DNA of 64,000 nt from Taurinivorans muris (GTDB lineage Bacteria; Desulfobacterota; Desulfovibrionia; Desulfovibrionales; Desulfovibrionaceae). Positions 4,583-18,017 of the stretch are shown here, one piece after another (position 1 is the first letter of the stretch; each line of letters begins with the position of its first letter). The stretch lies in contig NZ_CP065938.1 in the NCBI RefSeq assembly GCF_025232395.1, forward strand, positions 372,001 to 436,000. Direction: 5' to 3'. Both the position numbers and the translations under genes were made by a program. Below the pieces are notes generated by a model, which saw only the letters and a list, made by a program, of their open reading frames with translations, searched no databases and was not told the DNA's origin.

Positions 4583-5380
4583 ATGTTGGTACCTGTTGTC
4601 ATATATGCCTGTTTGGGGGCTGTTGCCGGTATTTTGGCGGGCTTGTTGGGGGTCGGCGGCGGAATTGTCATTGTTCCCATGCTCAGTGTCACTTTTGCGA
4701 TGCAAAATTTGCCTCATGAATTGATAATGCATTTGGCATTGGGCACCTCAATGGCGAGCATTATTTTTACTTCTTTTTCCAGCGCGATGGCGCATAATGG
4801 AAGACAGTCCGTCTTATGGAACCTTGTGAAAATAATAACACCAAGCATTATACTAGGAACGTTTTTCGGGTCTTTTATCGCTTCAAAAATTCCGACGCGG
4901 TATTTGCAACTTTTTTTTGCATTGTTTTTATTGGTTGTGGCTTTTCAAATGTTTTTCGGAAAAAATCCGAAAGCGAACAGGCAGCTGCCTGACTCCTTGG
5001 GAATAAGTCTGTTCGGAGCAGTCATAGGTATCATTTCCAGTTTGGTCGGTATCGGAGGCGGCACAGTATCCGTTCCTTTCATGGTTTTTCATAATGTCGA
5101 GCTGCGAAAGGCAATCGGAACATCTTCTGCAATAGGCATTCCTATTGCCGTTGCCGGAGCTGCGGGATATTTGATAAATGGTTTGTCAAATCCTGATTTG
5201 CCTGAATATTCTTTGGGATATATTTATTTGCCTGCTTTATTCGGGTTGGTTTTGTTCAGCTCCCTGACTTCACCCGTAGGCGCCAAACTGACCCATTCAT
5301 TGCCGGTGCATAGGATTAAAAAGTATTTTGCGTTCTTACTCTTGGTTGTCAGTATAAAAATGTTTTTAGAAACAATTTAA
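4583..5380 (+). CDS. TSUP family (TauE/SafE) membrane exporter
   Basis: This 265-residue integral membrane protein belongs to the sulfite exporter TauE/SafE family. It shows the family's internal duplication: GVGGGIVIVPML near residue 30 is echoed by VGIGGGTVSVPFM near 155, each opening a four-helix half. Characterised relatives export sulfite, sulfoacetate or related sulfur anions, but many members are uncharacterised. It starts 3 bp after gntR and is 24 bp before tctB, so it is co-transcribed with an uptake system. This suggests it exports a product or by-product of the imported compound. The substrate is not determined by sequence. Confidence 0.85.
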   Translation: MLVPVVIYACLGAVAGILAGLLGVGGGIVIVPMLSVTFAMQNLPHELIMHLALGTSMASIIFTSFSSAMAHNGRQSVLWNLVKIITPSIILGTFFGSFIASKIPTRYLQLFFALFLLVVAFQMFFGKNPKANRQLPDSLGISLFGAVIGIISSLVGIGGGTVSVPFMVFHNVELRKAIGTSSAIGIPIAVAGAAGYLINGLSNPDLPEYSLGYIYLPALFGLVLFSSLTSPVGAKLTHSLPVHRIKKYFAFLLLVVSIKMFLETI

Positions 5381-5404
5381 TCTTGAAAGGGATAAGGGGG
5401 TCAT

Positions 5405-5890
5405 ATGAAAAACACAGCTGATATTTTTTGCGGGGTATTTTTTCTCCTGATTTGCGCAGTCGCTGTTTGGAGCGTTTCTTCCCTGCCTGAGGCTTCCGGG
5501 GTTGATTATGTCGGTCCTGGAACACTGCCTAAGTTTGCCATCGCCATATTGGCTCTTTGCAGTTGTTATCTTATTTTGAAAGGTTTCATGGTCAAAGCTC
5601 CCAAAAAATATTTACCGGAAAAGAAAGTATTTTTAAAAATTTGTATGGTTTTGATTTTATTTTATCTTTATTTGGCTTCCGTAACATGGCTCGGTGATTA
5701 TTTTTTGAGTATGGAAAATCCCGTTTTTCTTTACGGCGGCGGTTTTGGAATAAGCACCGCACTGTTTCTTATGATTATTTTGCCTTTTTTGGGACGCAAA
5801 AATCCTGTTGAAGTCATTGCGGTTTCCCTTGTCACAACCGCATTGCTGATTGTTGTTTTCGGAATGTTTTTTAAAGTCTTGTTACCATAA
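5405..5890 (+). CDS. tctB: Tripartite tricarboxylate transporter small membrane subunit TctB
   Basis: This 161-residue protein is the small membrane subunit of a TTT carrier. It has a predicted helix at the N-terminus (about 8-28), a second after the conserved VGPGTLPKFAIAILAL stretch, and further hydrophobic helices toward the C-terminus, including ALLIVVFGMFFKVLLP, which is typical of TctB. It partners with TctA, encoded 17 bp downstream, and the periplasmic TctC further along the operon. A second, distinct tctB is at 13906. The specificity of the system cannot be taken from this subunit. Confidence 0.85.
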   Translation: MKNTADIFCGVFFLLICAVAVWSVSSLPEASGVDYVGPGTLPKFAIAILALCSCYLILKGFMVKAPKKYLPEKKVFLKICMVLILFYLYLASVTWLGDYFLSMENPVFLYGGGFGISTALFLMIILPFLGRKNPVEVIAVSLVTTALLIVVFGMFFKVLLP

Positions 5891-5907
5891 CATTTACGGA
5901 GTGGAAT

Positions 5908-7398
5908 ATGTTTGCCGAAGTATTGGAAGGAATTTTAAATGCGATGTCTTTAAGCAGTTTGCTTGCGAATTTAATGGGTGTCGTGTTAGGGATTATTTTT
6001 GGAGCATTGCCCGGACTGACTTCCGCCATGGGAGTAGCCCTGCTTATTCCGTTAACTTTTGGAATGCCCTCTATTGACGCGTTTTCCGCTTTGCTCGGAA
6101 TGTATGTCGGCTCTATCTACGGAGGGTGCATCACTGCGATTTTGGTAGGTACGCCCGGAACCGTCGCGGCGGCGGCAACCATGCTGGAAGGACCCGCACT
6201 AACGGCAAAAGGGGAATCAAGAAGAGGTCTCGATATGGCGACAATAGCTTCCTTTATAGGCGGTATATTCAGTTCCTTGGTTCTTGTCACTATCGCACCG
6301 TTGCTTGCGAAAGCGGCGATGTCTTTCGGCGCGCCTGAATATTTCGCCGTGGCGGTTTTCGGTCTTGCCATTGTGTCTTCCTTATCTTCCGGAGAGGTTA
6401 TCAAAGGGCTTATCGCCATGTCTTTGGGCTTATTGTTTTCATGTATCGGGTTGGACCCTATCACCGGCGACATGCGCAATACCTTTGACAATCCCAATCT
6501 TTTCAACGGGCTTTCACTGGTACCAGTTTTAATCGGTTTATTTGCCGTATCGCAAGTTCTTGTCACCATTGAAGACGTGATTGCGGGAAAAGGAATAAAA
6601 GAAGCGCGGGTAACGCAAAAAGGCTTGACCATAAAAGACATAACAAGCAATACCGTGAATTTTTTCCGCTCCTCGATAATCGGAACAATTATCGGCATTA
6701 TTCCGGCAACCGGGGTAAGCGCCGCGTCATTTCTGGCGTATTCCGAAGCCAAAAGAAATTCTAAAACGCCTGAACAATTCGGCAAGGGGTGTTTGGAAGG
6801 CATTGCCGCAACCGAATCTTCCAATAACGCGGTTTGCGGCGGGGCGTTAATTCCTTTATTAACGCTCGGTGTTCCCGGTGACATTGTCACGGCTATCATG
6901 CTTGGGGCATTGATGATACAGGGGTTGACTCCCGGACCGCTGCTTTTTGTTGAACATCCCGTTACGGTTTACGGTTTGTTCGCGGCTTTTGTCATCGCCA
7001 ATATTTTTATGCTCGGCACCGGATTGCTGACCGTCCGCGTTGCGGGCAAAATCATCGCTATTCCGGGAAATTTGCTTATGCCCGTGGTGCTGACGCTTTG
7101 CGTCGTCGGCGGGTATGCGGTGAACAATTCAACCTTTGACCTTTTGGTTGTCGCAATTTTCGGTACCTTGGGATATTTCATGCAAAAATTCGATATTCCG
7201 CAGCCTCCGTTATTGCTTGCAATGATTTTATCACCGATAGCCGAAACCAATTTCAGAAGGGCATTGTCTATTTCCCAAAATGATTACAGCATATTTTACA
7301 CCAGCCCGGTAACCTGCATTATTTTGTTTGTCAGTTTGTTGATTGTTTGCAATCCGATTATCACAAAGGCTGTCCGTCATATCAAATCCAAAAAATAG
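5908..7398 (+). CDS. tctA: Tripartite tricarboxylate transporter large permease TctA
   Basis: This 496-residue permease has about a dozen hydrophobic segments and moves the substrate using an ion gradient. The family signatures are present: GALPGLTSAMGVALLIPLT near residue 31, YGGCITAILVGTPGT near 70-85, and the internal repeat GIIPATGVSAASFLAYSEAK followed by FGKGCLEGIAATESSNNAV. The second half of the first motif (VGTPGTVAAAATMLEG) departs from the commoner NTPGTPESAATTxDG seen in the other TctA here (14360). The two systems may therefore carry different compounds. It lies 17 bp after tctB and 9 bp before an M20 peptidase. Confidence 0.9.
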   Translation: MFAEVLEGILNAMSLSSLLANLMGVVLGIIFGALPGLTSAMGVALLIPLTFGMPSIDAFSALLGMYVGSIYGGCITAILVGTPGTVAAAATMLEGPALTAKGESRRGLDMATIASFIGGIFSSLVLVTIAPLLAKAAMSFGAPEYFAVAVFGLAIVSSLSSGEVIKGLIAMSLGLLFSCIGLDPITGDMRNTFDNPNLFNGLSLVPVLIGLFAVSQVLVTIEDVIAGKGIKEARVTQKGLTIKDITSNTVNFFRSSIIGTIIGIIPATGVSAASFLAYSEAKRNSKTPEQFGKGCLEGIAATESSNNAVCGGALIPLLTLGVPGDIVTAIMLGALMIQGLTPGPLLFVEHPVTVYGLFAAFVIANIFMLGTGLLTVRVAGKIIAIPGNLLMPVVLTLCVVGGYAVNNSTFDLLVVAIFGTLGYFMQKFDIPQPPLLLAMILSPIAETNFRRALSISQNDYSIFYTSPVTCIILFVSLLIVCNPIITKAVRHIKSKK

Positions 7399-7407
7399 GA
7401 GGAACTT

Positions 7408-8619
7408 ATGGAACTGCGAGATAAAGCGAAACTGCTCTTCGCATGGTTTAATGACCATTATGAGGAAATGCTGGGAAAAATCGAATTGATTGTCAATATG
7501 GATTCTTTTTCCCATGACGGAAAAGATGTGAATGTTCTCGGTGAAACGGTATGCTCATTTTTTGAAGGGACAGATTTTATCACGGAGAAAGCTGCGAAAA
7601 AGGAATGCCCGGAAGATGAGCCGTGGCAAGCGGAGTTGGGAAATGTTTTTACAGCAAGGACCCATAAGAAAGAAGATGGTGCAGGCATTGTTTTTCTGGC
7701 GCATATGGATACCGTATTTCCCAAGGGCACGGCAGGCAAGCGTCCGTTTTATTTCGATAAAGAAAATGACAGGGCCTACGGCCCCGGAATTGTGGATATG
7801 AAATCCGGTTTGATAATGAATATTTTTGTTGCCAGGGCATTGAAAGAATTAGGCTTGGTTTCTTGTCCGATCACATTGACGTTTTCGCCTGATGAAGAAA
7901 TCGGTTCCCCCTCGGCTTTGCCGGTTTTGCAGGATGAACTGAAAAATGCATTGGTTTCTTTTTGTTCCGAGCCGGGATATGTAGGAAACGGGGTTACGAT
8001 CGAACGAAAGGGATCCGGACATATTTTATTGGAAATTACGGGTAAATCTTCTCATGCGGGCAGAGCTTATGCGGAAGGGGCTTCCGCAATTTTGGAGCTG
8101 GCGCATAAAATTTTGGCATTTGACAAATATGTTGACTTATCAAGGGACAAAACCGTCAATACCGGAATCATAAAAGGCGGCACTTCTGCCAATTCTGTCG
8201 CTCCCAACGCAATGGCAAGGATACATCTTACGTACAAAACCTTGGAGGAAGGCGAGCGGCTTGTCGAAGCGATAAAAGAAGAAGCGGCAAAAACATATGT
8301 GGAAGGAACCCGCACTTCTCTTAGCGGCGGTTTGCGCTTGCCGCCTTTGGTTCCAAATGCGGGTGCGAAAAAATTATATGAATTTGTAAAAAACGCAGGG
8401 GAAATGATACAGTATGTCCCGTTTGTCGAAGCGTCAAAAGGTGCAGCCGAATCCGGGTTTTGCTCAAGTGTTTTAAAAATTCCCAGTATTTGCAGTATGG
8501 GACCTGAGGGAGGTTTTTTGCACAATGAAAAGGAATATATCATTCCGTCGACCATTATTCCGCGCTGTGAATTAATTGCGCTGGCAAGCATACAGGCAGC
8601 CGATTATTTCCATAAATAA
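7408..8619 (+). CDS. M20 family metallopeptidase (carboxypeptidase G2-like), copy 1
   Basis: This 403-residue enzyme is of the M20 dizinc amidohydrolase type that cleaves terminal amino acids or related amines from N-acyl conjugates. All expected site residues are visible: H99 and D101 (AHMDT), bridging D130 (YGPGIVDMKSG), the glutamate pair E163-E164 (SPDEEIGS), E188 (SEPG) and C-terminal H372. The lid/dimerisation domain lies between about 195 and 305 (GKSSHAGRAYAEG). No signal peptide is seen, so it should act in the cytoplasm after import. A paralogue is three genes downstream. The substrate is unknown; an amide or peptide conjugate brought in by the TTT system is the simplest idea. Confidence 0.88.
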   Translation: MELRDKAKLLFAWFNDHYEEMLGKIELIVNMDSFSHDGKDVNVLGETVCSFFEGTDFITEKAAKKECPEDEPWQAELGNVFTARTHKKEDGAGIVFLAHMDTVFPKGTAGKRPFYFDKENDRAYGPGIVDMKSGLIMNIFVARALKELGLVSCPITLTFSPDEEIGSPSALPVLQDELKNALVSFCSEPGYVGNGVTIERKGSGHILLEITGKSSHAGRAYAEGASAILELAHKILAFDKYVDLSRDKTVNTGIIKGGTSANSVAPNAMARIHLTYKTLEEGERLVEAIKEEAAKTYVEGTRTSLSGGLRLPPLVPNAGAKKLYEFVKNAGEMIQYVPFVEASKGAAESGFCSSVLKIPSICSMGPEGGFLHNEKEYIIPSTIIPRCELIALASIQAADYFHK

Positions 8620-8634
8620 CAACAGGAGAGTATT

Positions 8635-9609
8635 ATGAAAAAGATGAACAAATTGTTAGCCGTGTTCCTTGGGATAAGCTTATTGGGCTTTGGTGCGCCC
8701 GATATGGCCAAAGCCGCTTATCCTAACCGTCCCGTAACCATTATCATTCCTTTCGGACCAGGAGGGGCTGTTGATATCGCGGCGAGAATTTTAGCGGAAT
8801 ATTTTCAAAATAAACATCAAATCACTTTGAATATCGTATGCAAAGGTGGCGGGGCGGGAGCGCCTGCAATGCTTGATGTCGCAAGGGCAAGACCAGACGG
8901 GTACACATTCGGTTTTCCTGCCTTGGCGACATTTTCCGCAACGCCTCAAATCAGGAAAACCGGATACACTATCGGTGATTTCAAAGCGGTGGCGCAAGTG
9001 ACAAATATGTGGCTCAGCCTTTCCGTCAATAAGGATTCCGGCATTGCGAATTTAAACGAATTTTTTGAAATGGCGAAAAAAGAACCCGGAAAGTACAATT
9101 ATGCCACCCATGGCGCTCTTTCGACCCAACGTATTTTCATGACGAATATTTTAAAAGCGTACCCTGATGTTAATTTGCCCCATATCAGTTATACAAGCGG
9201 ACACGACGTATCGACAGCCCTTCTCGGCAAGCATGTCAGCGCCGCTTTTGGCGTGACAATCAATCAGAAACCGTATGTCGATTCCGGTGACTTCACAATG
9301 ATTGCGGTAAGCAGCGACAAAAGGCTTGAAGAATTTCCGGATGTTCCGACGTTTAAAGAACAGCTGGGGGATAACGACACGTTTGTTTTCGCTTCTTCCC
9401 ATGGATTGCTCGCACCAAAAAGAACGCCTGATTCCTGTATTATTGCGATGCAGGATTTAATCAAAGAAGCATTGGAAGACAGCTCCGTACAGGAAAAATT
9501 CAAGAAAGCGGGGCTTACCGCGGATTATTTGCCTGCTGCCGAATTTCAAGTTGTCATGGAAACTATTTGGGATTATATCGGAAAAACGTTAAAAGAAAAT
9601 AATTTTTAA
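8635..9609 (+). CDS. tctC: TTT substrate-binding protein TctC (Bug family), copy 1
   Basis: This 324-residue periplasmic binding protein has a signal peptide (residues 1-28, cleaved near AKA). The mature start YPNRPVTIIIPFGPGGAVDIAARI is the hallmark Bug-family ligand-loop region. Further family features are LDVARARPDGYTFGF and the C-terminal VPTFKEQLG stretch. Bug proteins bind small carboxylates and occasionally other anions and deliver them to TctAB, here encoded upstream in the same operon. Reading stops 50 bp before the next gene, and a strong hairpin lies between. Confidence 0.9.
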   Translation: MKKMNKLLAVFLGISLLGFGAPDMAKAAYPNRPVTIIIPFGPGGAVDIAARILAEYFQNKHQITLNIVCKGGGAGAPAMLDVARARPDGYTFGFPALATFSATPQIRKTGYTIGDFKAVAQVTNMWLSLSVNKDSGIANLNEFFEMAKKEPGKYNYATHGALSTQRIFMTNILKAYPDVNLPHISYTSGHDVSTALLGKHVSAAFGVTINQKPYVDSGDFTMIAVSSDKRLEEFPDVPTFKEQLGDNDTFVFASSHGLLAPKRTPDSCIIAMQDLIKEALEDSSVQEKFKKAGLTADYLPAAEFQVVMETIWDYIGKTLKENNF

Positions 9610-9610
9610 A

Positions 9611-9648
9611 AAATAAGGCAAGCCGTTTTATGACGGTTTGCCTTATTT
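9611..9648 (+). promoter_or_regulatory. Strong intercistronic hairpin
   Basis: AAATAAGGCAAGCCGT (9611-9626) pairs with ACGGTTTGCCTTATTT (9633-9648) at 15 of 16 positions over a 6-nt loop. It directly follows the tctC stop and precedes the next gene's ribosome site. There is no long T-run beyond the stem, so partial termination or protection of the upstream message is more likely than full termination. That would raise TctC relative to the downstream genes. Confidence 0.6.
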
Positions 9649-9659
9649 GCGAGGTTGCT

Positions 9660-10709
9660 ATGAAAAATTTAAAATTTTTTTCATTTATACTGGCATGTAT
9701 TGTTTCCGTATTTTTTACCTTTCCGGTCCATGCCCGGGATTTGCCCGGAATAAAAACAGCATGGCTTGGTGAGCATGAAAAATTCATTGTCTGGTATGCG
9801 CAAAAGCACGGGTGGGATGAAGAGCACGGTTTTAAACTGGACGTATTGAATTTTGATTCAGGCAAGAGCATTCTTGACGGAATGAAAGCCTATGGCTGGG
9901 AAATTGCCGGCATGGGCGCCGTTCCCGCATTGACCGGATATTTCAATAAGGAAATAAAAATTATTGCGATAGCGAATAATGAGTCAAATTCCAATATGCT
10001 CTATGTGCGAAACAACAGCCCTCTTTTGCGGCAAAAAGGATATGATCCAGCATATCCCGATGTTTACGGCTCCCCTGAACTTGTTCGTAATGCGAAAATA
10101 CTGTGTGCTAAAGGTTCTTCTGCCCATTACTTGGTGGATTCATGGCTGAAACTGTTTGATTTGACGGAAAAAGACGTCAAAATGCAGTTTATGGAAATGA
10201 CACCCGCTTTCGGAGCTTTTAAAGGCGGTTTCGGGGATATTGCCGGAGTATGGTCCCCATATGTTTTTGAAGCCGATAAAATGGGGTTCCAAGCGATAGC
10301 CGATGGCGAGACCTGCAATGTTTTTCAGCCGGTTCTCATTGTTGTGAATGTTGAATATGCTGAAAAAAATCCGCAGCTGGTGACGGCGTTTTTAAAAATG
10401 TATATGCAAGGCATAGAATTGCTGCGAACCAAGCCGTTGGAAGATCTCGCCCCTGAATATCAAACGTTTTTTAAAGAAGAATTGAATTTGGATATAACGC
10501 GGGACGAGGCTCTTTTTGATTTGCGCAATCACCCTGTTTTCACCCTTGACGAGCAAAAAGTCATGTTCAATGATAAAAATCAAACAAGCGTGGTTTATGA
10601 TTGGTTAAACGAAATTGTGGAGTTTTACAAGGCGAATAACGGTGTCATGACGGAAACGAAAGAGAAACTCAATGCGCTTGACCCGACGTGGATCAACCAA
10701 ATTCAGTAA
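9660..10709 (+). CDS. Orphan SsuA/TauA-like (NMT1-type) substrate-binding protein
   Basis: This 349-residue protein resembles the periplasmic binding proteins of sulfonate, nitrate and related ABC importers. The start at 9660 is preferred because it gives a clean signal peptide (MKNLKFFSFILACIVSVFF, cleaved near VHA) and follows a GAGG; an in-frame start at 9630 lies in the loop of a hairpin. Fold features include WLGEHEKFIVWYAQKHG at the mature N-terminus and GSSAHYLVDSWLKLF in the middle. No ABC permease or ATPase is nearby, so it is an orphan in a TTT operon. It may feed TctAB, act as a sensor, or use an importer elsewhere. Family call is fairly firm; ligand unknown. Confidence 0.75.
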   Translation: MKNLKFFSFILACIVSVFFTFPVHARDLPGIKTAWLGEHEKFIVWYAQKHGWDEEHGFKLDVLNFDSGKSILDGMKAYGWEIAGMGAVPALTGYFNKEIKIIAIANNESNSNMLYVRNNSPLLRQKGYDPAYPDVYGSPELVRNAKILCAKGSSAHYLVDSWLKLFDLTEKDVKMQFMEMTPAFGAFKGGFGDIAGVWSPYVFEADKMGFQAIADGETCNVFQPVLIVVNVEYAEKNPQLVTAFLKMYMQGIELLRTKPLEDLAPEYQTFFKEELNLDITRDEALFDLRNHPVFTLDEQKVMFNDKNQTSVVYDWLNEIVEFYKANNGVMTETKEKLNALDPTWINQIQ

Positions 10710-10712
10710 GTT

Positions 10713-11939
10713 ATGGCTATGCATGCGAAAATAATCGAAGATTTTTTTTCTGATAAGGAAGCGCAGATGCTCAATATGCTGGAGCATATTGTTAATTTGT
10801 GTTCCTTTACCGGTGACAGGGAAGGGGTTGAAAAGGTCGGGCGGTATTTAATGGATTTTCTTTCCGCCCATGGTTTTTATACGAAGCAAATTGAAAAAAC
10901 GGAAATTCCGGAAAACGAGGCATGGCTCAATACGCATTGTGATCCGTTTGTTGCAAAATCCCATCCCTTTGATTCGGAGGCGGGAATTGTTCTTGCGGGA
11001 CATCTTGATACGGTTTTTCCCCGTGCATATTGCAGGGAGCGCAGGTTTAGGATTGATTTTGAAAAGGATAGGGCTTACGGTCCCGGAGTCGCGGATATGA
11101 AAGCGGGATTGATTGCGAATATCTTTGCGGCTCTGGCATTGAAAGAAAACAATTTGCTTGTTTGCCCGATTACCTTAGCTTTTTCAACAGATGAAGAACT
11201 TGGCTCTCCGGTTTCCTCACGGGCGATAAAACAATATGCCGCAGGGGCGAGGGCAGCTATCAATGCCGAACCCGGTGGCATCGGCGGTTTTGTAACCCTT
11301 TCCCGCAAAGGGTCCGGGCATATCACATTAAATGTAAAAGGAAAGTCTGCGCATGCCGGAAGGAATTATCAGGACGGCGCCTCGGCTATTTTGGAATTAG
11401 CCCATAAAACCCTTGAGATTGATAAATTTCTCGACATTTCTAAAAGCATTACTGTCAATACGGGACTTGTCGAGGGGGGAATATCTGCAAATTCCGTTGC
11501 TCCCGCGGCGAGTTCCAAAATCCATATCACCTATCAAACCCGCGAACAAGGGGAAGAGCTTGTTAAAAATATTCGGACTGTCGCCAATTCGGTTTTTATT
11601 GAGGGAACAGAAACGGAAATGACGGGCGGTTTGCGTTTATATCCATTGGAGCGGAGCGAAAAAGGGGATATGTTATTTGAATTGGCAAGAGAAGCGGGAA
11701 AATGTTTCGGAATGGAACTGCGGGGACAGCATTATGAAAGCGCTTCGGATTCCGGTTTTTATTCCTCTGTTTTAAATATTCCCACAATTTGCTGTATGGG
11801 ACCGGAAGGGGACAACATCCATACGCCGGATGAATATTTAATCCCCTCAACCATTTTAAAACGGAGCAAATGCATTGCATTGACCGCCTTATATGCCGCT
11901 CGGAAATTTAAAAAGCCATGCAGCAGTGAATTTCATTGA
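10713..11939 (+). CDS. M20 family metallopeptidase (carboxypeptidase G2-like), copy 2
   Basis: This 408-residue paralogue of the peptidase at 7408 shares most motifs. Metal and catalytic residues are H97 and D99 (GHLDT), D128 (YGPGVADMKAG), E161-E162 (STDEELGS), E186 (AEPG) and H370. The lid domain carries GKSAHAGRNYQDGASAI. It starts 3 bp after the binding-protein stop, so it is translationally close-coupled; a second ATG 6 bp further is possible. Two such enzymes in one operon suggest two steps on one conjugate, related substrates, or a heteromer. It is the last gene of the operon; no clear terminator follows. Confidence 0.87.
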   Translation: MAMHAKIIEDFFSDKEAQMLNMLEHIVNLCSFTGDREGVEKVGRYLMDFLSAHGFYTKQIEKTEIPENEAWLNTHCDPFVAKSHPFDSEAGIVLAGHLDTVFPRAYCRERRFRIDFEKDRAYGPGVADMKAGLIANIFAALALKENNLLVCPITLAFSTDEELGSPVSSRAIKQYAAGARAAINAEPGGIGGFVTLSRKGSGHITLNVKGKSAHAGRNYQDGASAILELAHKTLEIDKFLDISKSITVNTGLVEGGISANSVAPAASSKIHITYQTREQGEELVKNIRTVANSVFIEGTETEMTGGLRLYPLERSEKGDMLFELAREAGKCFGMELRGQHYESASDSGFYSSVLNIPTICCMGPEGDNIHTPDEYLIPSTILKRSKCIALTALYAARKFKKPCSSEFH

Positions 11940-12083
11940 ATAAAAACACACCGTTTCCATTCGCACCCGCATTCACTTTTTTGCGTTCCCAATAGGATTT
12001 ATTGCCGGTTGAAATGATATATGATTGATGATACGCTAAAAGGAAAGAGCGGGAGAATATTTTTTTACAGCGTTGAGGGTGCG

Positions 12084-12782
12084 ATGGAAAACCAATGGTA
12101 TTGGAAGAATAAGGATTTTTTTGAAGCGTTTGACGCTCAGAAAGAGAAGTTTTTGCGTGTTTCCCAAAAAATGGAAATAGATAAAAATACGATGATATTT
12201 TTTGAAGAGGATTTGGGGGATTGTTGTTTTTATCTGTCAAAAGGTTTGGTGAGAATTTTCAGTGTTTCGGATTCAGGAAAAGAGCCTATTTTTTTCCTGC
12301 GCAGGCAGGGGGATTTGTTCGGATTGTCGGAAGTTTTGGGAAATGTGCCGCGTAAGGCGAACGCACAGGCTTTAACAAGCTGCGAATTGTATAAAATACA
12401 CAGTGCCGAATTGGAAAAATTATTAAAAGAAGATTATCTGCTGGCCCGGCGGATCATATCCTTATTAGGTGCGAGGGTGCGGTATTTGGGAGATTATGTC
12501 AGTAATTTAATGACGTGCACGGTTAAAATACGACTGGTTAAAGTATTCATTGCATTAATTTATGACAGCATCCCTTCCGCCGAGGATTGGAATAATCCCG
12601 TTACGATACCTATTAAAATTTCACAGGAACAGCTTGCTTCCATGACCGGCTCGACGCAGCCGACCATTTCTGATTTATTGCAGGAACTACAAAAGGACGG
12701 AATCATAACGATAGCAAGAAAGCAAGTTTGCGTGTGTAAACCGTATATGCTTTTAAATATTATCGAATCGTGCGAAATATGA
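12084..12782 (+). CDS. Crp/Fnr family transcriptional regulator
   Basis: This 232-residue regulator has an N-terminal cyclic-nucleotide-type beta barrel (GLVRIFSVSDSGKEPIFFLRRQGDLFG region), a long dimerisation helix, and a C-terminal Crp-type helix-turn-helix (residues about 180-205: ISQEQLASMTGSTQPTISDL). The start at 12084 has a GAGG 7 nt upstream; an in-frame ATG at 12021 has none. No N-terminal cysteine set typical of the oxygen sensor FNR is seen, so the ligand is open. It has its own terminator and lies just before the second TTT operon, whose promoter carries a matching-type palindrome. It probably activates that operon. Confidence 0.85.
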   Translation: MENQWYWKNKDFFEAFDAQKEKFLRVSQKMEIDKNTMIFFEEDLGDCCFYLSKGLVRIFSVSDSGKEPIFFLRRQGDLFGLSEVLGNVPRKANAQALTSCELYKIHSAELEKLLKEDYLLARRIISLLGARVRYLGDYVSNLMTCTVKIRLVKVFIALIYDSIPSAEDWNNPVTIPIKISQEQLASMTGSTQPTISDLLQELQKDGIITIARKQVCVCKPYMLLNIIESCEI

Positions 12783-12814
12783 TGAAAAAACAGAGCAAGA
12801 TCGGAGAATATCGG

Positions 12815-12843
12815 GCTGACAGTATTTGTGTCAGCTTTTTTTT
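12815..12843 (+). terminator. Rho-independent terminator of the Crp/Fnr gene
   Basis: GCTGACA (12815-12821) pairs with TGTCAGC (12829-12835) over 7 nt and is followed by eight T residues. It separates the regulator transcript from the tctC operon. Confidence 0.85.
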
Positions 12844-12858
12844 ATTAAATTCCATTTT

Positions 12859-12901
12859 TATCATCTGGCTGATAGAACGGAAATTTTTAATTGAGTATAA
12901 A
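12859..12901 (+). promoter_or_regulatory. Crp-type palindrome and promoter of the second TTT operon
   Basis: TATCA-N6-TGATA (12859-12874) is a perfect 5-6-5 palindrome of the spacing used by Crp-type dimers. A -10-like TATAAA lies at 12896-12901, with no good -35 box. If transcription starts 7 nt later, near 12908, the palindrome is centred at about -41.5, the classical class II activator position. The neighbouring Crp/Fnr protein is the obvious candidate. The start site is predicted, not measured. Confidence 0.6.
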
Positions 12902-12930
12902 AGAGTCATACATCAAAAAGGAGAAAGATT

Positions 12931-13893
12931 ATGAGTTTGAAAAAAATTCTTGTTTCCTGTTTTGTGCTGGGTATGTTTTTGGCTTTTGGTGCTGATCAGG
13001 CTGAAGCTGAAAACTACCCAAACCACCCTGTAAAACTTTTAACCATGACCGGTCCGGGGGCTCAAATTGATTTGGTGGCGCGCTCATTTGCTGAACAATT
13101 AAAAAATATCTTGGGGCAACCCGTATTGGTGACCAATATGCCGGGCGGTTCACATGGCAGCGTTATGGCTTCTGAATTGTCAACAAGCCCGAAGGATGGA
13201 TATACGGTTGGTATTTCCGCGACAGGCGCGTTTAATTATTCGCCGTATTTCATAAAAACAAAATATACGAAAGATGATTTTGATTATTTAAGTTTAATTG
13301 CTTTAAATCAAAGCGGTATCATAGCCCGTCCCGACAAGCCTTGGAATACTTTAAAAGAAGCCTTCGCGTGGGCGAAAAAAGAGGAAAAAGGTTTGACGTA
13401 TATGTTCCAAGGCTCTGACGACAGGGACGCAATGGCGAGAATTGCAAAACAAGAAGGCATAAATCTGTCTTTAATGCCAAGTACGGGAGGTCCTTCCATC
13501 ATAACCGCCGTAATGGGCGGGCATGCTGATTTGGGACATGTTGGAGCGATATTGTTTGATTATGTTGAAAGCGGAAAACTGAAATTATTGGCGGCGACAA
13601 CTCCCGTCCGCTTAAATCCTTTATCTGATGTTCCGACACTGAAAGAGCAGGGTTGGGATGAGTCGGTTGAAATGTATGTTGTTTTTGTAACGCCGAAAGG
13701 TTTGCCCGCTGATGTGAGAGCAAAATTGGCGGATGCCACGCAAAAAATCGTTAACGATGAACAATTTATCGATTTTGTCGGGAAGAAATTAAAAATGGCT
13801 CCGGTTGATTCAACGAGCGAATACGCTGTGAGATATATCGAAGAAAGTTCCCTCAGGAATAAGGCGATCATAGGACAACGTGAACAACAATAA
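12931..13893 (+). CDS. tctC: TTT substrate-binding protein TctC (Bug family), copy 2
   Basis: This 320-residue secreted binding protein has a signal peptide of about 26 residues ending at AEA. The mature start NYPNHPVKLLTMTGPGAQIDLVARS aligns with the Bug signature, but the usual PFxxGG loop is replaced by MTGPGAQ, which touches the ligand-binding loop. TSPKDGYTVGISATG and the VPTLKEQGWDES region are standard. AAGGAG precedes the ATG. It heads an operon with tctB and tctA at 12-13 bp spacings and two redox genes, so the ligand should be the substrate or precursor of the AprA-like enzyme. Confidence 0.9.
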   Translation: MSLKKILVSCFVLGMFLAFGADQAEAENYPNHPVKLLTMTGPGAQIDLVARSFAEQLKNILGQPVLVTNMPGGSHGSVMASELSTSPKDGYTVGISATGAFNYSPYFIKTKYTKDDFDYLSLIALNQSGIIARPDKPWNTLKEAFAWAKKEEKGLTYMFQGSDDRDAMARIAKQEGINLSLMPSTGGPSIITAVMGGHADLGHVGAILFDYVESGKLKLLAATTPVRLNPLSDVPTLKEQGWDESVEMYVVFVTPKGLPADVRAKLADATQKIVNDEQFIDFVGKKLKMAPVDSTSEYAVRYIEESSLRNKAIIGQREQQ

Positions 13894-13905
13894 AACGAGG
13901 GAATT

Positions 13906-14346
13906 ATGTCAATATATCAACGGGATATAATCGGATATGCAATAATTCTCATACTCTCTTGCTCATTATATTTTTGGGGAATACCGGCGTATTCCCCGGA
14001 ATATCCAGGGTATGGCGTTCCGGCGTCCTTTATGCCCGATATTGCGGCTGTTTGTATGGGGGGATTGAGCATTTTGGGATTGGTTCAAACAGTTAAAAAG
14101 CGAAACAAAGAAACAAAAGCCGGCAAAATCAATTGGATTCATTTGATAAAGTTTTTTGTTCCATGTTTATTGTTAATGCCTGCCATGGCGACAATAGGAT
14201 ATTTAATTTCCGGAATGCTGTTTTTATCTCTCATTCAATTCTTTTGCGGACAAAGGAACGTGTTGTGTTTGGTTCTTGTTTCCATAGTGCCTGTTGCCGT
14301 GTTCTATGCATTGATGGTGTATGCTTTGGGTGTGCCTTTGCCATAA
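13906..14346 (+). CDS. tctB: Tripartite tricarboxylate transporter small membrane subunit TctB, copy 2
   Basis: This 146-residue membrane protein has four likely helices: DIIGYAIILILSCSLYFWG at the N-terminus, one after FMPDIAAVCMGGLSILGLV, and a C-terminal pair ending MVYALGVPLP. The C-terminal P-L-P ending is usual for TctB. It lies between tctC and tctA with 12-13 bp gaps. It is too divergent from the TctB at 5405 to be a simple recent duplicate. Confidence 0.85.
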   Translation: MSIYQRDIIGYAIILILSCSLYFWGIPAYSPEYPGYGVPASFMPDIAAVCMGGLSILGLVQTVKKRNKETKAGKINWIHLIKFFVPCLLLMPAMATIGYLISGMLFLSLIQFFCGQRNVLCLVLVSIVPVAVFYALMVYALGVPLP

Positions 14347-14359
14347 ATAAGGAGTTCGT

Positions 14360-15841
14360 ATGGTTGAAAGTATGTTAGCAGGCTTTATGGATTCCCTGCA
14401 ATGGACAAATTGTCTGTTTGTGCTTGCGGGAGTGATTTTGGGGGTTATCGCAGGGGCAATTCCCGGAGTGAACGGAACGATGGCGATAGCGTTATGCATA
14501 CCCCTTTCTTATTATATGTCGGCAGCTGCCGCCATCGGCTTTTTGGTTGGTCTGAACAAAGGGGCGTTTTTTGGCGGTTCAATTTCCGGAATATTGCTCA
14601 ATACTCCCGGAACGCCTGAATCCGCCGCGACGACGTGGGACGGGTACCCTTTGGCGGAACAGGGAAAAGGCGAAAAAGCCTTGAAAATGGCATTGTTTTC
14701 TTCTGTGACCGGTGATGCGTTCGCAACCATGGTTTTGGTTTTGGTTGCCGCTCCTTTGGCGGCTGTCGCTCTGTATATGGGACCGCCTGAAATTTTCGCC
14801 CTTATTTGTATGGCTATGACCATTATCGCAGGGCTCGGCAACGGGTCCATGCTGCGCGGTTTGATTGCCGCGTGCATGGGCTTGCTTATCGGTTCTGTCG
14901 GTATTGAATCTGTTTCAGCCATGCCCCGCTTGACATTCGGAATAACAGCGCTGGAAAGGGGAATTTCGCTTATTCCTATCGGTATCGGCATGTTGGCGTT
15001 TTCGGAAATCATTCTTCAGCTGGAAAGAAAATTCATTCATGGTGATACTGCCTGTTCCATGTTTTTTTCAGAAAAAAAAGAAGATAGGAGCATTACGGCA
15101 AAAGAATACGGTTCCTGTATGAAAACATTGATCCGTTCTTCATTGGCGGGAACCGTCGTCGGGGCTTTGCCCGGGCTCGGAGCGCCGGTCGCGTCTTTTT
15201 TTGCTTATGACCGTGCCGTAAAAAAATCAAACATGCCGGAAACATTCGGAAAAGGCAATATCGAAGGCATTGCGGCTTCGGAAGCAGCCAACAGCGCTGT
15301 TGTCGCTTCAAGCTTAATTCCTTTATTCACGCTTGGTATTCCCGGAAATATGGCTTCGGCATTGTTGGTCGGCGCTTTCGTTATTCATGGTATGATACCG
15401 GGACCTTTGATGTTCGAGCAAAATGCCCAATTTATTTATTCCATATACGGCAGTTTGATTTGGGCGAATATTTTTTTGCTGGGAGTCGGACTGTTCAGTT
15501 TGAAAGCCTCTTGCCGTTTGGTGCAGGTTCCTTCCGATATTTTGTATCCGGTCATTATTTTCACGTGTATTATGGGTGCTTATCTTTCCCAGTACGCCGT
15601 TTTTGATGTGACGCTGATGCTTTGTTTCGCCATTTTGGCATATTTTATGAAAAAATTCGATTATTCCTTTATTTGCCTGATAATCGGATTTATTTTAGCA
15701 CCTATTTGGGAAACGTCTTTACAGCAACTGATTATTTCTTCTGAACAAAATCCTTTCATGATTTTTCAAAGACCCGTGGCTCTTGCATTGCTGGGGCTGT
15801 CCCTTTGGGTGACGTTCAGGGCTGTAAGGAATAAGAAATAA
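14360..15841 (+). CDS. tctA: Tripartite tricarboxylate transporter large permease TctA, copy 2
   Basis: This 493-residue multi-helix permease carries the standard motifs: GAIPGVNGTMAIALCIPLS near residue 35, FFGGSISGILLNTPGTPESA near 72-90, and the repeat GALPGLGAPVASFFAYDRA with FGKGNIEGIAASEAANSAV. It therefore follows the family consensus more closely than the TctA at 5908. It should form an ion-coupled uptake system with the tctC and tctB products encoded upstream. The next gene, 12 bp on, encodes the AprA-like flavoprotein. Confidence 0.92.
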   Translation: MVESMLAGFMDSLQWTNCLFVLAGVILGVIAGAIPGVNGTMAIALCIPLSYYMSAAAAIGFLVGLNKGAFFGGSISGILLNTPGTPESAATTWDGYPLAEQGKGEKALKMALFSSVTGDAFATMVLVLVAAPLAAVALYMGPPEIFALICMAMTIIAGLGNGSMLRGLIAACMGLLIGSVGIESVSAMPRLTFGITALERGISLIPIGIGMLAFSEIILQLERKFIHGDTACSMFFSEKKEDRSITAKEYGSCMKTLIRSSLAGTVVGALPGLGAPVASFFAYDRAVKKSNMPETFGKGNIEGIAASEAANSAVVASSLIPLFTLGIPGNMASALLVGAFVIHGMIPGPLMFEQNAQFIYSIYGSLIWANIFLLGVGLFSLKASCRLVQVPSDILYPVIIFTCIMGAYLSQYAVFDVTLMLCFAILAYFMKKFDYSFICLIIGFILAPIWETSLQQLIISSEQNPFMIFQRPVALALLGLSLWVTFRAVRNKK

Positions 15842-15853
15842 AAGGAGTGTATT

Positions 15854-17614
15854 ATGGCAAATTTTAGTGCGAAAAGAATGCGGCAATGGGCGCCGAAATC
15901 CGTAAGCGAAATTGAACGTGTTGAAATTACGTGCGACATTCTTGTCATCGGCGGCGGAAATGCCGGATGTTTCGTTGCCGTCGAAGCTGCGAAAAAAGAA
16001 CCTGCCGCAAAAGTCGTCATTATGGAAAAAGCCGAAATTATGCGTTCCGGAGCATGTTCCGCCGGTATGGACGCTATCAATACCTACATTCCTAAAGGAA
16101 AAACTCCTGAAGATTTGGTTCGCTGGAGCAGGGAACAGGTTGGCGGGGGACCGCTGCGGGAAGACTTGGCTTTATCCAATGCGCGGGAATTGAATGAAGC
16201 TGTTGAAGATTTAGAGCGCTGGGGACTGCCTGTTTTACGGGATGAATACGGAAATGTGCGGTATAGGGGCAAGTGGGATATTTCCATTCACGGAGAACAA
16301 TTAAAACCTATTATGGCGGAAAAAGCCCTTGAAAGCGGAGCAGATGTTTATAACCGTGTTACGGCGACAGCGTTATTGATGGAAAAGGATAAATGTGTCG
16401 GGGCGATAGGTCTGGGGATTCGTGACGGCAAACTATATGTTTTTAAAGCAAAAGCCACCGTTCTTTCAACAGGCGGCGCCGCCACCTTGTATAAATCGTA
16501 CACGGCGGATTCAACGGACTGCGGCGCGCAAATATGGATGTGCCCTTATTGCGTCGGAACCGGTTATGCGATTGGTTTCAGGCAGGGCGCCGAACTGACA
16601 AGCTTGGAGCAGCGCTGGGTGGCGACACGCACAAAAGATTTTTGCGGACCTGTCGATACCATTTCCCAAGCTTACGGGGCTGCGATTATTAATGCGAAGG
16701 GCGAAAGGGTTATGAGCCGGTATGAGCATTTAGGCGGTGAAAATGCTCCCCGGTATATCCGTGCGAACGCTCCTATGGAGGAATGGCTGGCAGGGCGCGG
16801 TCCGTGTTATTGTGATACGACGCATATGTCTGAGGAACAAACAAAACACATGCTCGAAGATTATCTCAACGAACGCCCGTCTTTTGTTTTGTTTTTAGCA
16901 GGCAGGGGACAAAATCCGGCAAAAGAACCCATTGAAATTTACGGATCGGACCCGTATATTGTGGGCGGCCATACGGGAAGCGGTTTTTGGGTTGATGAAA
17001 ACCGCATGACAACGGTAAAAGGTTTGTTTGCCGCCGGTGAAACAGCAGGCGGAAATCCCAATAAATTTGTCGGCGGCTGCTGTGCGGAAGGAAAATTGGC
17101 GGCGCGCGGAGCGTTGGAATATATCAAAACTCATCCTGTTGATTTGGATACGCTTACTTGTGAAGAGCAAATCAAAAAAGAAACAGAGCGGGTATTTATG
17201 CCCATGCTTGCGAAAGATGAAGCCGGCATTACTGCCGTGGAGATGAAAGAAAGGCTGCAAAGGCTGATGGATGAATATGCGGGAGGAATAAGCCAATTTT
17301 ACAGAACAAATGAGGAACGCTTGGATTATGCCTTAAAACATATTGCAATACTGAAAGAGCAGTTTCAGTATCTTCGGGCACAGGATTTACATGAGTTGAT
17401 GCAAGTTTTGGAAACAATGGATAGGGTTGAGGTTGCCGAAGCAGTTATCCTTCACTTGAAAGCGCGCAAGGAAACCCGTTGGGCGGGTTGGCAGACCCGT
17501 TCCGATTATCCTGAACGGGATGATAAGAATTATAATTGTTTCATTGAAACGAAAAAAGATCCTGAAACCGGTGAAATTTCCGTATTCACCAGACCTTATG
17601 AAAGAATTGTATAA
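15854..17614 (+). CDS. AprA-like FAD-dependent oxidoreductase, probable reductase
   Basis: This 586-residue flavoprotein belongs to the fumarate reductase/succinate dehydrogenase superfamily and is closest in pattern to adenylylsulfate reductase AprA. The FAD Rossmann motif is VIGGGNAG (31-38). AprA-like blocks follow: MRSGACSAGMDAINTY (63-78), GKWDISIHGEQLKPI (139-153), R254 in LEQRWVATRTKD, H373 in GGHTGSGFW and KFVGGCCAEGK. R254 and H373 fall where AprA has substrate-site residues. True AprA is about 660 residues, so this is shorter. No signal peptide is present. It pairs with an AprB-like ferredoxin 15 bp downstream and sits behind a TTT importer. It likely reduces, or oxidises, the imported compound; which one is unknown. 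Confidence 0.75.
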   Translation: MANFSAKRMRQWAPKSVSEIERVEITCDILVIGGGNAGCFVAVEAAKKEPAAKVVIMEKAEIMRSGACSAGMDAINTYIPKGKTPEDLVRWSREQVGGGPLREDLALSNARELNEAVEDLERWGLPVLRDEYGNVRYRGKWDISIHGEQLKPIMAEKALESGADVYNRVTATALLMEKDKCVGAIGLGIRDGKLYVFKAKATVLSTGGAATLYKSYTADSTDCGAQIWMCPYCVGTGYAIGFRQGAELTSLEQRWVATRTKDFCGPVDTISQAYGAAIINAKGERVMSRYEHLGGENAPRYIRANAPMEEWLAGRGPCYCDTTHMSEEQTKHMLEDYLNERPSFVLFLAGRGQNPAKEPIEIYGSDPYIVGGHTGSGFWVDENRMTTVKGLFAAGETAGGNPNKFVGGCCAEGKLAARGALEYIKTHPVDLDTLTCEEQIKKETERVFMPMLAKDEAGITAVEMKERLQRLMDEYAGGISQFYRTNEERLDYALKHIAILKEQFQYLRAQDLHELMQVLETMDRVEVAEAVILHLKARKETRWAGWQTRSDYPERDDKNYNCFIETKKDPETGEISVFTRPYERIV

Positions 17615-17629
17615 AAAAGGAAGTGGAAT

Positions 17630-17953
17630 ATGCCGCCAATTGTGAATTTAAAAAAATGTACAGGCTGTCAGGGCAGGGAAGAATCGTACTGCGAAAATAT
17701 CTGCCCCGGAGATTTAATGGCTGTAAATCCTGAAACTGGAAAGGCGTATTGCCGTTCAGCAAAAGAATGCTGGGATTGCATGTCGTGCGTGAAAGCGTGT
17801 CCCAATGGGGCATTGGAAACGAAAATACCGTATCAAATCGGATATTATAAAGCGACGCTTCGTCCCATCATGGGAAAAAATACCGTAACGTGGAAAAGTA
17901 AGGATATTTATGGCAATGAAAGCACGTATAAAACCAAAAACAGGAATGCATGA
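17630..17953 (+). CDS. AprB-like 2x[4Fe-4S] ferredoxin subunit
   Basis: This 107-residue protein has two cluster-binding cysteine sets, C10/C13/C21/C25 and C47/C50/C53/C57. CTGCQGREESYCENICP, with its 7-residue insert, and ECWDCMSCVKACP match AprB, and W48 corresponds to the tryptophan placed between cluster and flavin in APS reductase. Classical AprB is about 150-165 residues; the long C-terminal tail that wraps around AprA is missing here. It should carry electrons to or from the flavoprotein. It is the last gene of the operon before a strong terminator. Confidence 0.8.
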   Translation: MPPIVNLKKCTGCQGREESYCENICPGDLMAVNPETGKAYCRSAKECWDCMSCVKACPNGALETKIPYQIGYYKATLRPIMGKNTVTWKSKDIYGNESTYKTKNRNA

Positions 17954-17985: not shown

Positions 17986-18017
17986 GTCCTGCTTTTTTAA
18001 GCAGGACAAATTTTTTT
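17986..18017 (+). terminator. Bidirectional terminator between the AprB-like gene and aspA
   Basis: GTCCTGCTT (17986-17994) pairs with AAGCAGGAC (17999-18007) over a 4-nt loop. A T-run follows on the plus strand (18011-18017), and the preceding A-run gives a T-run on the minus strand. It can end both converging transcripts. Confidence 0.88.

Follow-up and report, generated by a model that had tools for sequence, protein, structure and literature searches.

There is precedent for the scaffold of dissimilatory adenosine 5'-phosphosulfate (APS) reductase, AprAB (PDB 1jnr/2fja, 3gyx), acting on another substrate. The enzyme of Methanothermococcus thermolithotrophicus, MtPAPSR (PDB 8a8o), has APS-reductase architecture and is specific for 3'-phosphoadenosine 5'-phosphosulfate (PAPS) (PMC10322725). 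FrdA/SdhA, UrdA and Fcc3 belong to the same flavoprotein superfamily, and its urocanate and fumarate reductases depend on an essential Arg that acts as the acid and protonates the substrate; removing this Arg from urocanate reductase abolishes hydride transfer (PMC10882135). The published genome of Taurinivorans muris LT0009 (2.2 Mbp, 43.6% G+C) is described as having AprAB and lacking Sat and QmoAB (PMC10507020). We analysed 64,000 nucleotides of T. muris DNA (the window), which are positions 372001-436000 of one 2,172,708-base contig (NZ_CP065938.1) of a genome that is 99% complete. The window carries a five-gene cassette in which a tripartite tricarboxylate transporter (TTT) stands next to an AprAB-like pair. 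We report that this pair belongs to a distinct, importer-coupled AprAB-like clade whose annotated APS-reductase role is unlikely.

The cassette runs tctC-tctB-tctA-aprA-like-aprB-like on the + strand, with gaps of 12, 13, 12 and 15 bp, in agreement with the tandem spaced by 12-15 bp described in the initial annotation. A purine-rich, Shine-Dalgarno-like stretch precedes each of the five starts. The importer is complete, since its periplasmic binding protein TctC (12931..13893; PF03401, E 1e-39), its small membrane subunit TctB (13906..14346; PF07331, E 1e-13) and its large membrane subunit TctA (14360..15841; PF01970, E 3e-134) all score over the cut-off. The catalytic alpha subunit, P0004 (15854..17614), is an AprA-like flavin adenine dinucleotide (FAD) flavoprotein of 586 amino acids with the Pfam domains FAD_binding_2 and Succ_DH_flav_C. 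The beta subunit (17630..17953) is an AprB-like 2[4Fe-4S] ferredoxin of 107 amino acids (Pfam Fer4), which keeps eight Cys and the electron-transfer Trp (CWDC) and is missing the long AprB tail. As noted initially, the pair has an importer as its neighbor and neither sat nor qmo beside it. Like the TTT sulfolactate importer cluster SlcHFG of T. muris, the cassette combines a TTT importer with a respiratory catabolic set; unlike it, where sulfolactate is processed via SlcC-ComC-SuyAB with no AprAB-like enzyme (PMC10507020), it carries such an enzyme.

The alpha subunit falls outside both dissimilatory AprA and the PAPS reductases. Its score against TIGR02061 (aprA) was 394 bits (cut-off 642) and that of the beta subunit against TIGR02060 (aprB) 80 bits (cut-off 136), so neither model was passed. 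The FrdA/SdhA models were not passed either (TIGR01812, 180 vs 567 bits; NF006131, 321 vs 587 bits). The model NF005331 ("adenylyl-sulfate reductase subunit alpha") was passed with 596 bits (cut-off 557). The best solved relative was PAPS reductase 8a8o (E 1e-143), followed by the APS reductase of Archaeoglobus fulgidus (E 1e-102). In a maximum-likelihood tree of 63 rows, rooted with a distant fumarate reductase outgroup, P0004 formed one clade (support 100/99) with 22 orthologues, drawn from Desulfovibrionaceae and from other Desulfobacterota. This clade lies outside the canonical AprA clade (100/100), beside which stand the A. fulgidus protein and another type of AprA, and is excluded from the MtPAPSR clade (98/97), which holds MtPAPSR, an Ilyobacter plasmid protein and others. 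Because the branch joining the AprA and MtPAPSR clades has moderate support (85/79) and the outgroup is distant, the position of the root is known with less certainty than the division into three clades. Two points of the initial annotation can be judged here. The protein was correctly called shorter than AprA, the open frames of canonical AprA in relatives being about 665-710 amino acids, and placement inside the AprAB clade, which it had raised against its own reading, was not found. Apart from MtPAPSR and the annotation of T. muris, literature searches, with subscription papers outside their coverage, returned nothing on the P0004 clade. Also in the tree, an AprAB from an unannotated 21.8-kb "Klebsiella pneumoniae plasmid" record (NZ_CP061967.1, 8545-10884; L155) grouped with Desulfobacterota rows beside canonical AprA; the sequence is probably a foreign contig in that record.

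The residues of the A. fulgidus active site (PMC2211403) were mapped onto the alpha subunit; in what follows, the A. fulgidus residue is named first. The contacts to the sulfo group and FAD are retained (N74 as N76, W234 as W228, R265 as R259 and H398 as H373), as is D361 (D336). N76, W228, R259 and R303 are present in 60 of 60 orthologues and H373 in 59, the remaining one having X at this position. The AMP pocket is substituted at Q145 (D142), G274 (D268), F277 (S271), L278 (Q272), H446 (N403), Y95 (W91) and E141 (R138). These substitutions are invariant over the 60 orthologues except at position 272, which is Val in the other 59. AprA proteins have other residues throughout at these positions, and the PAPS reductase group differs at all of them save R138 and Q272, which are common to part of that group. 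W255, in place of F261, is found in all 60 orthologues. R138 and K140 correspond to R118 and K120 of the PAPS reductase loop; of the three loop residues K120, R121 and S122, which align with K140, W141 and D142, one is kept, and K140 occurs in 39 of the 60 orthologues. The initial annotation had named R254 and H373 as APS-site residues. H373 does stand at the place of His-398. R254, however, pairs with residue 260, and it is R259 that takes the place of Arg-265.

An Arg occupies position 300 in 60 of 60 orthologues, against Thr or Ala in the AprA and PAPS reductase relatives. Profile alignment with 6lum, a succinate dehydrogenase, placed "aaPRyiranapmeewlagRG" gaplessly on "lAPRDIVARSMVLEVLEGRG", which puts R300 in the catalytic-arginine column of SdhA/fumarate reductase. 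K404 falls in the column of the second substrate Arg of fumarate reductase/succinate dehydrogenase, and D268 comes close to the fumarate reductase Thr/Glu loop, in a region where the alignment is uncertain by one to two residues. An AlphaFold2 model of the alpha subunit was not used, with a mean predicted local distance difference test score of 68 and active-site loops below 50. The enzyme thus shares with MtPAPSR the two-subunit FAD and 2[4Fe-4S] architecture, a similar length and the catalytic N, W, R and H; it differs in clade, in D142 and W141 at the places of S122 and R121, in the new residues R300, D268, S271 and N403, and in having a dedicated importer and regulator and no sulfate-activation genes. 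It shares with dissimilatory AprAB the fold family, the cofactors, the sulfo contacts and the Trp between cluster and FAD, but it is shorter (586 vs about 640-670 amino acids), has a short AprB tail, belongs to a separate clade, has a substituted AMP pocket and lacks sat and qmo. It resembles FrdA/SdhA, UrdA and Fcc3 in superfamily and in the columns of R300 and K404, but the match is just about 100 bits, the AprA oxyanion site is kept, and the partner is an AprB-type ferredoxin rather than an SdhB-type subunit.

About 60 of the 288 Desulfovibrionaceae genomes searched encode the alpha subunit, among them those of Desulfovibrio piger and animal-gut relatives of Bilophila and Taurinivorans, and it also occurs in other Desulfobacterota. 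Wherever the contig extends far enough, nearly all examined loci have an importer gene ahead of the alpha-beta pair. The initial annotation had asked whether phylogeny would set the protein apart in a clade with TTT neighbors; the clade and the transporter neighbors were borne out, but TTT is not universal, since DASS or TauE/SafE importers take its place. These three families are mutually unrelated. TTT occurs at 13 loci, the window counted, DASS importers of three subtypes accompany other cassettes, and TauE/SafE is found in the Nitratidesulfovibrio loci and at L052; the importers of L059 and L066 were not resolved. TctA (P0003) shares 71-77% identity with its counterparts in other cassettes, compared to 37% with the second TctA in the window. 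An attempt to assign the DASS substrate from SNT motifs was abandoned, with degenerate motifs and no usable reference. The T. muris genome also contains more sets of an FRD/Apr-like flavoprotein (548-614 amino acids) and a DASS importer, at G000:C1:1821500-1841400 (L166), 1457500-1466500 (L167) and 482500-490500 (L168). Some of these sets also have a 72-78-amino-acid AprB-like ferredoxin and a nearby regulator of the Crp or LysR type. They suggest that importer-coupled cytoplasmic reductases are a general strategy.

A Crp/FNR-family regulator (12021..12782, + strand; Pfam cNMP_binding and HTH_Crp_2) forms its own transcription unit upstream of tctC. A Crp homologue (38-55% identity) adjoins the cassette in most sufficiently flanked loci, either 3' of aprB-like or 5' of tctC. 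Between the regulator and tctC lies the operator-like palindrome TATCATCTGGCTGATA (12859..12874), the sole TATCRN6YGATA match in the window (0.11 expected). An exact match is present upstream of the first cassette gene in 30 of 40 loci, with TTT, DASS and TauE importers alike, and the whole 563 kb of those 40 loci contain just 32 exact sites. In this count same-genus loci are not independent, and several of the ten loci with no site have truncated or uncertain upstream ends. The TTT loci have TATCA...TGATA and the DASS and TauE loci TATCG. The common palindrome is the strongest sign that cassettes with different importers have one function, and the Crp/FNR-type regulator would be expected to act on it.

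Outside Desulfovibrionaceae, the gene after aprB-like encodes an HdrA2-like protein with an MvhD/FlpD domain, and at L137 and L138 there are additionally a NarI/HdrC-type membrane protein and HdrB. These HdrA-like partners parallel the Qmo/Hdr partnership with AprAB. They recall QmoABC-linked APS reduction in that an HdrA-like and sometimes HdrC/NarI- and HdrB-like partner accompanies the pair in other families, as Qmo does for AprAB; they differ in that the partner is HdrA2-like and not QmoAB, that sat is missing, and that the window genome has no such partner. The electron supply through ferredoxin-type clusters proposed in the initial annotation gains from these partners in part, namely outside Desulfovibrionaceae. 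An orphan PhnD-like periplasmic binding protein (PF12974), which also has weak likeness to the tetrathionate sensor TtrS, was seen in or beside the cassettes with HdrA-like partners at L136, L137, L138, L141 and L143.

We propose that the cassette is a self-contained respiratory unit under its own regulation, whose enzyme works in the cytoplasm as terminal reductase of an organic anion brought in by the importer and donates a proton in the manner of fumarate reductase; we give this proposal an even chance of being right. The substrate would be an organic anion other than APS or PAPS, most likely an alpha,beta-unsaturated carboxylate. The Crp/FNR-type regulator at the 16-bp palindrome would turn on the importer (TTT here) and the AprAB-like reductase. 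Electrons would pass from the two [4Fe-4S] clusters of beta through the conserved Trp to the FAD of alpha, FADH- would reduce the imported anion seated in the retained oxyanion site (N76, W228, R259, H373 and K404), and R300 would donate the proton, perhaps relayed by D268. An unsaturated-acid reductase is favored because sulfo transfer offers no evident task for R300 and because the genome carries the further sets of DASS importer and FRD/Apr-like flavoprotein described above. The initial annotation had suggested a terminal reductase in the cytoplasm that acts on an imported organic compound; this is partly supported by the clade and the importer neighbors and remains the best reading. Several observations weigh against it. 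Four sulfo-contact residues of APS reductase are kept with no obvious need in a plain C=C reductase. A query with the HdrA-like protein returned only short ferredoxin matches from the window genome, and no HdrA-like donor was found there. The D268 relay comes from sequence alignment alone, the structure model being too poor for side chains. DsrA was found in 18 of 18 orthologue genomes of the phylum sample (one a weaker match), which fits sulfite release, although kinship confounds this association. Finally, AprAB is reported undetected in the proteome on taurine, sulfolactate or thiosulfate (PMC10507020), so these compounds are unlikely inducers.

The current annotation implies a variant APS or PAPS reductase, whether dissimilatory, assimilatory or sulfite-oxidising. 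In its favor are the nearest solved structure, the passed NF005331 cut-off, the R138 and K140 counterparts of the PAPS reductase loop, and the Ilyobacter relative that adjoins cysC, cysD and a DASS importer. However, the 2.17-Mb genome, a single contig, contains no sat, cysD, APS kinase (PF01583) or canonical aprA anywhere along its length and therefore has no known route of APS or PAPS supply, and neither compound is the substrate by any known route. Qmo was not searched for in the genome here, its absence being taken from PMC10507020. A sat search over 59 genomes did not find the gene in the orthologue carriers G067 (98% complete), G140 (100%), G097 (91%) and three less complete ones. The absence of canonical aprAB elsewhere in the genome, which the initial annotation would have counted toward an APS role, is real but argues against that role, because sat, cysD and APS kinase are missing too. 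Some members of the MtPAPSR clade adjoin cysD/cysN or cysC (Ilyobacter L154, and L144, L146 and L147), but no cysC, cysD or cysN homologue was found beside any orthologue of P0004. Together with the clade outside both AprA and PAPS reductase and the AMP pocket substituted in all 60 orthologues, the missing genes led us to reject APS and PAPS reductase as candidates, and we regard such an activity as very improbable. The Ilyobacter polytropus plasmid pILYOP02, a predicted conjugative plasmid of a Fusobacterium, carries at 6973-13742 (L154) a DASS-cysC-AprA-like-AprB-like-cysD-GTP-binding protein operon, whose enzyme is likely an assimilatory MtPAPSR-type PAPS reductase outside archaea.

The main alternative to reduction of an unsaturated acid is reductive desulfonation, in which the reduced FAD would attack the sulfur of an imported organosulfonate or S-sulfonate, form an N5-sulfite adduct and release sulfite to DsrAB. 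The sulfo contacts N76, W228, R259 and H373 are (nearly) invariant, the importer families include members for sulfate, sulfite or sulfonate (Na_sulph_symp, TauE/SafE and TTT), and orthologues are present in sulfonate-respiring lineages (Taurinivorans and Bilophila). The DsrA association points in the same direction: against 18 of 18 orthologue genomes, DsrA is over the cut-off in 188 of 395 sample genomes, and a strong match is found in none of 10 genomes of the MtPAPSR clade. Outside the family of the window, DsrA is present in 9 of 9 orthologue genomes (hypergeometric P ~0.001, a result weakened by kinship between genomes). However, an alkyl sulfonate has a poor (carbanion) leaving group, which would limit the reaction to activated sulfonates; this chemistry offers no obvious role for the acquired R300, the DsrA association suffers from the kinship already mentioned, and the protein was not reported on taurine, sulfolactate or thiosulfate. 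We consider desulfonation possible but doubtful. A dehydrogenase would oxidise an imported saturated acid and pass electrons out via the ferredoxin subunit to a membrane HdrA/HdrC-like partner where present. Flavoproteins of this superfamily run both ways and an importer is commonly found in one operon with a catabolic enzyme, but APS and PAPS reductases, the nearest relatives of known function, act in the reductive direction, the hosts live by anaerobic respiration, and no other catabolic genes were seen in the cassette; this direction appears improbable. Thiosulfate reductase was considered as T. muris has no known one, and was set aside with AprAB reported undetected on thiosulfate.

Two hairpins, read from the sequence, border the cassette. 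An intrinsic-terminator-like hairpin, GCTGACAGTATTTGTGTCAGC followed by T8 (12815..12835, + strand), lies in the interval between the regulator and tctC, and GTCCTGCTTTTTTAAGCAGGAC, with A/T runs on its flanks (17986..18007), is common to the cassette and to aspA (aspartate ammonia-lyase), which converges on it from downstream; the latter is probably a two-way terminator. A Desulfovibrio sp. UBA8003 record covers the flavoprotein end, the ferredoxin and aspA with matches of 99.8-100%. A functional tie to aspA was rejected: among the loci examined, the adjacency is found only in the window genome and the near-identical record L077, so aspA is probably unrelated. Just upstream, a second TTT locus (window 4583-11939) encodes in tandem TauE/SafE, TctA, an M20 peptidase, TctC, an NMT1-like binding protein and a second M20 peptidase, which suggests import and hydrolysis of an amide-linked compound.

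Because its standard annotation is APS reductase, the alpha subunit can pass for a sign of sulfate reduction in organisms unable to activate sulfate, and the published Taurinivorans muris genome has been read as carrying APS reductase. It is conceivable, though on present evidence unlikely, that gut and sediment Desulfobacterota have an unrecognised respiration in which this scaffold, with swappable importers, frees sulfite from an organosulfonate via an N5-sulfite flavin adduct and feeds DsrAB. If so, a sulfite-releasing scaffold would stand in place of glycyl-radical or lyase routes. An APS-reductase site bearing the arginine of fumarate reductase offers a direct test case for a shift of chemistry on one flavin scaffold. 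If the cassette serves a new terminal acceptor, the view of what feeds these hydrogen- and lactate-consuming bacteria would change.

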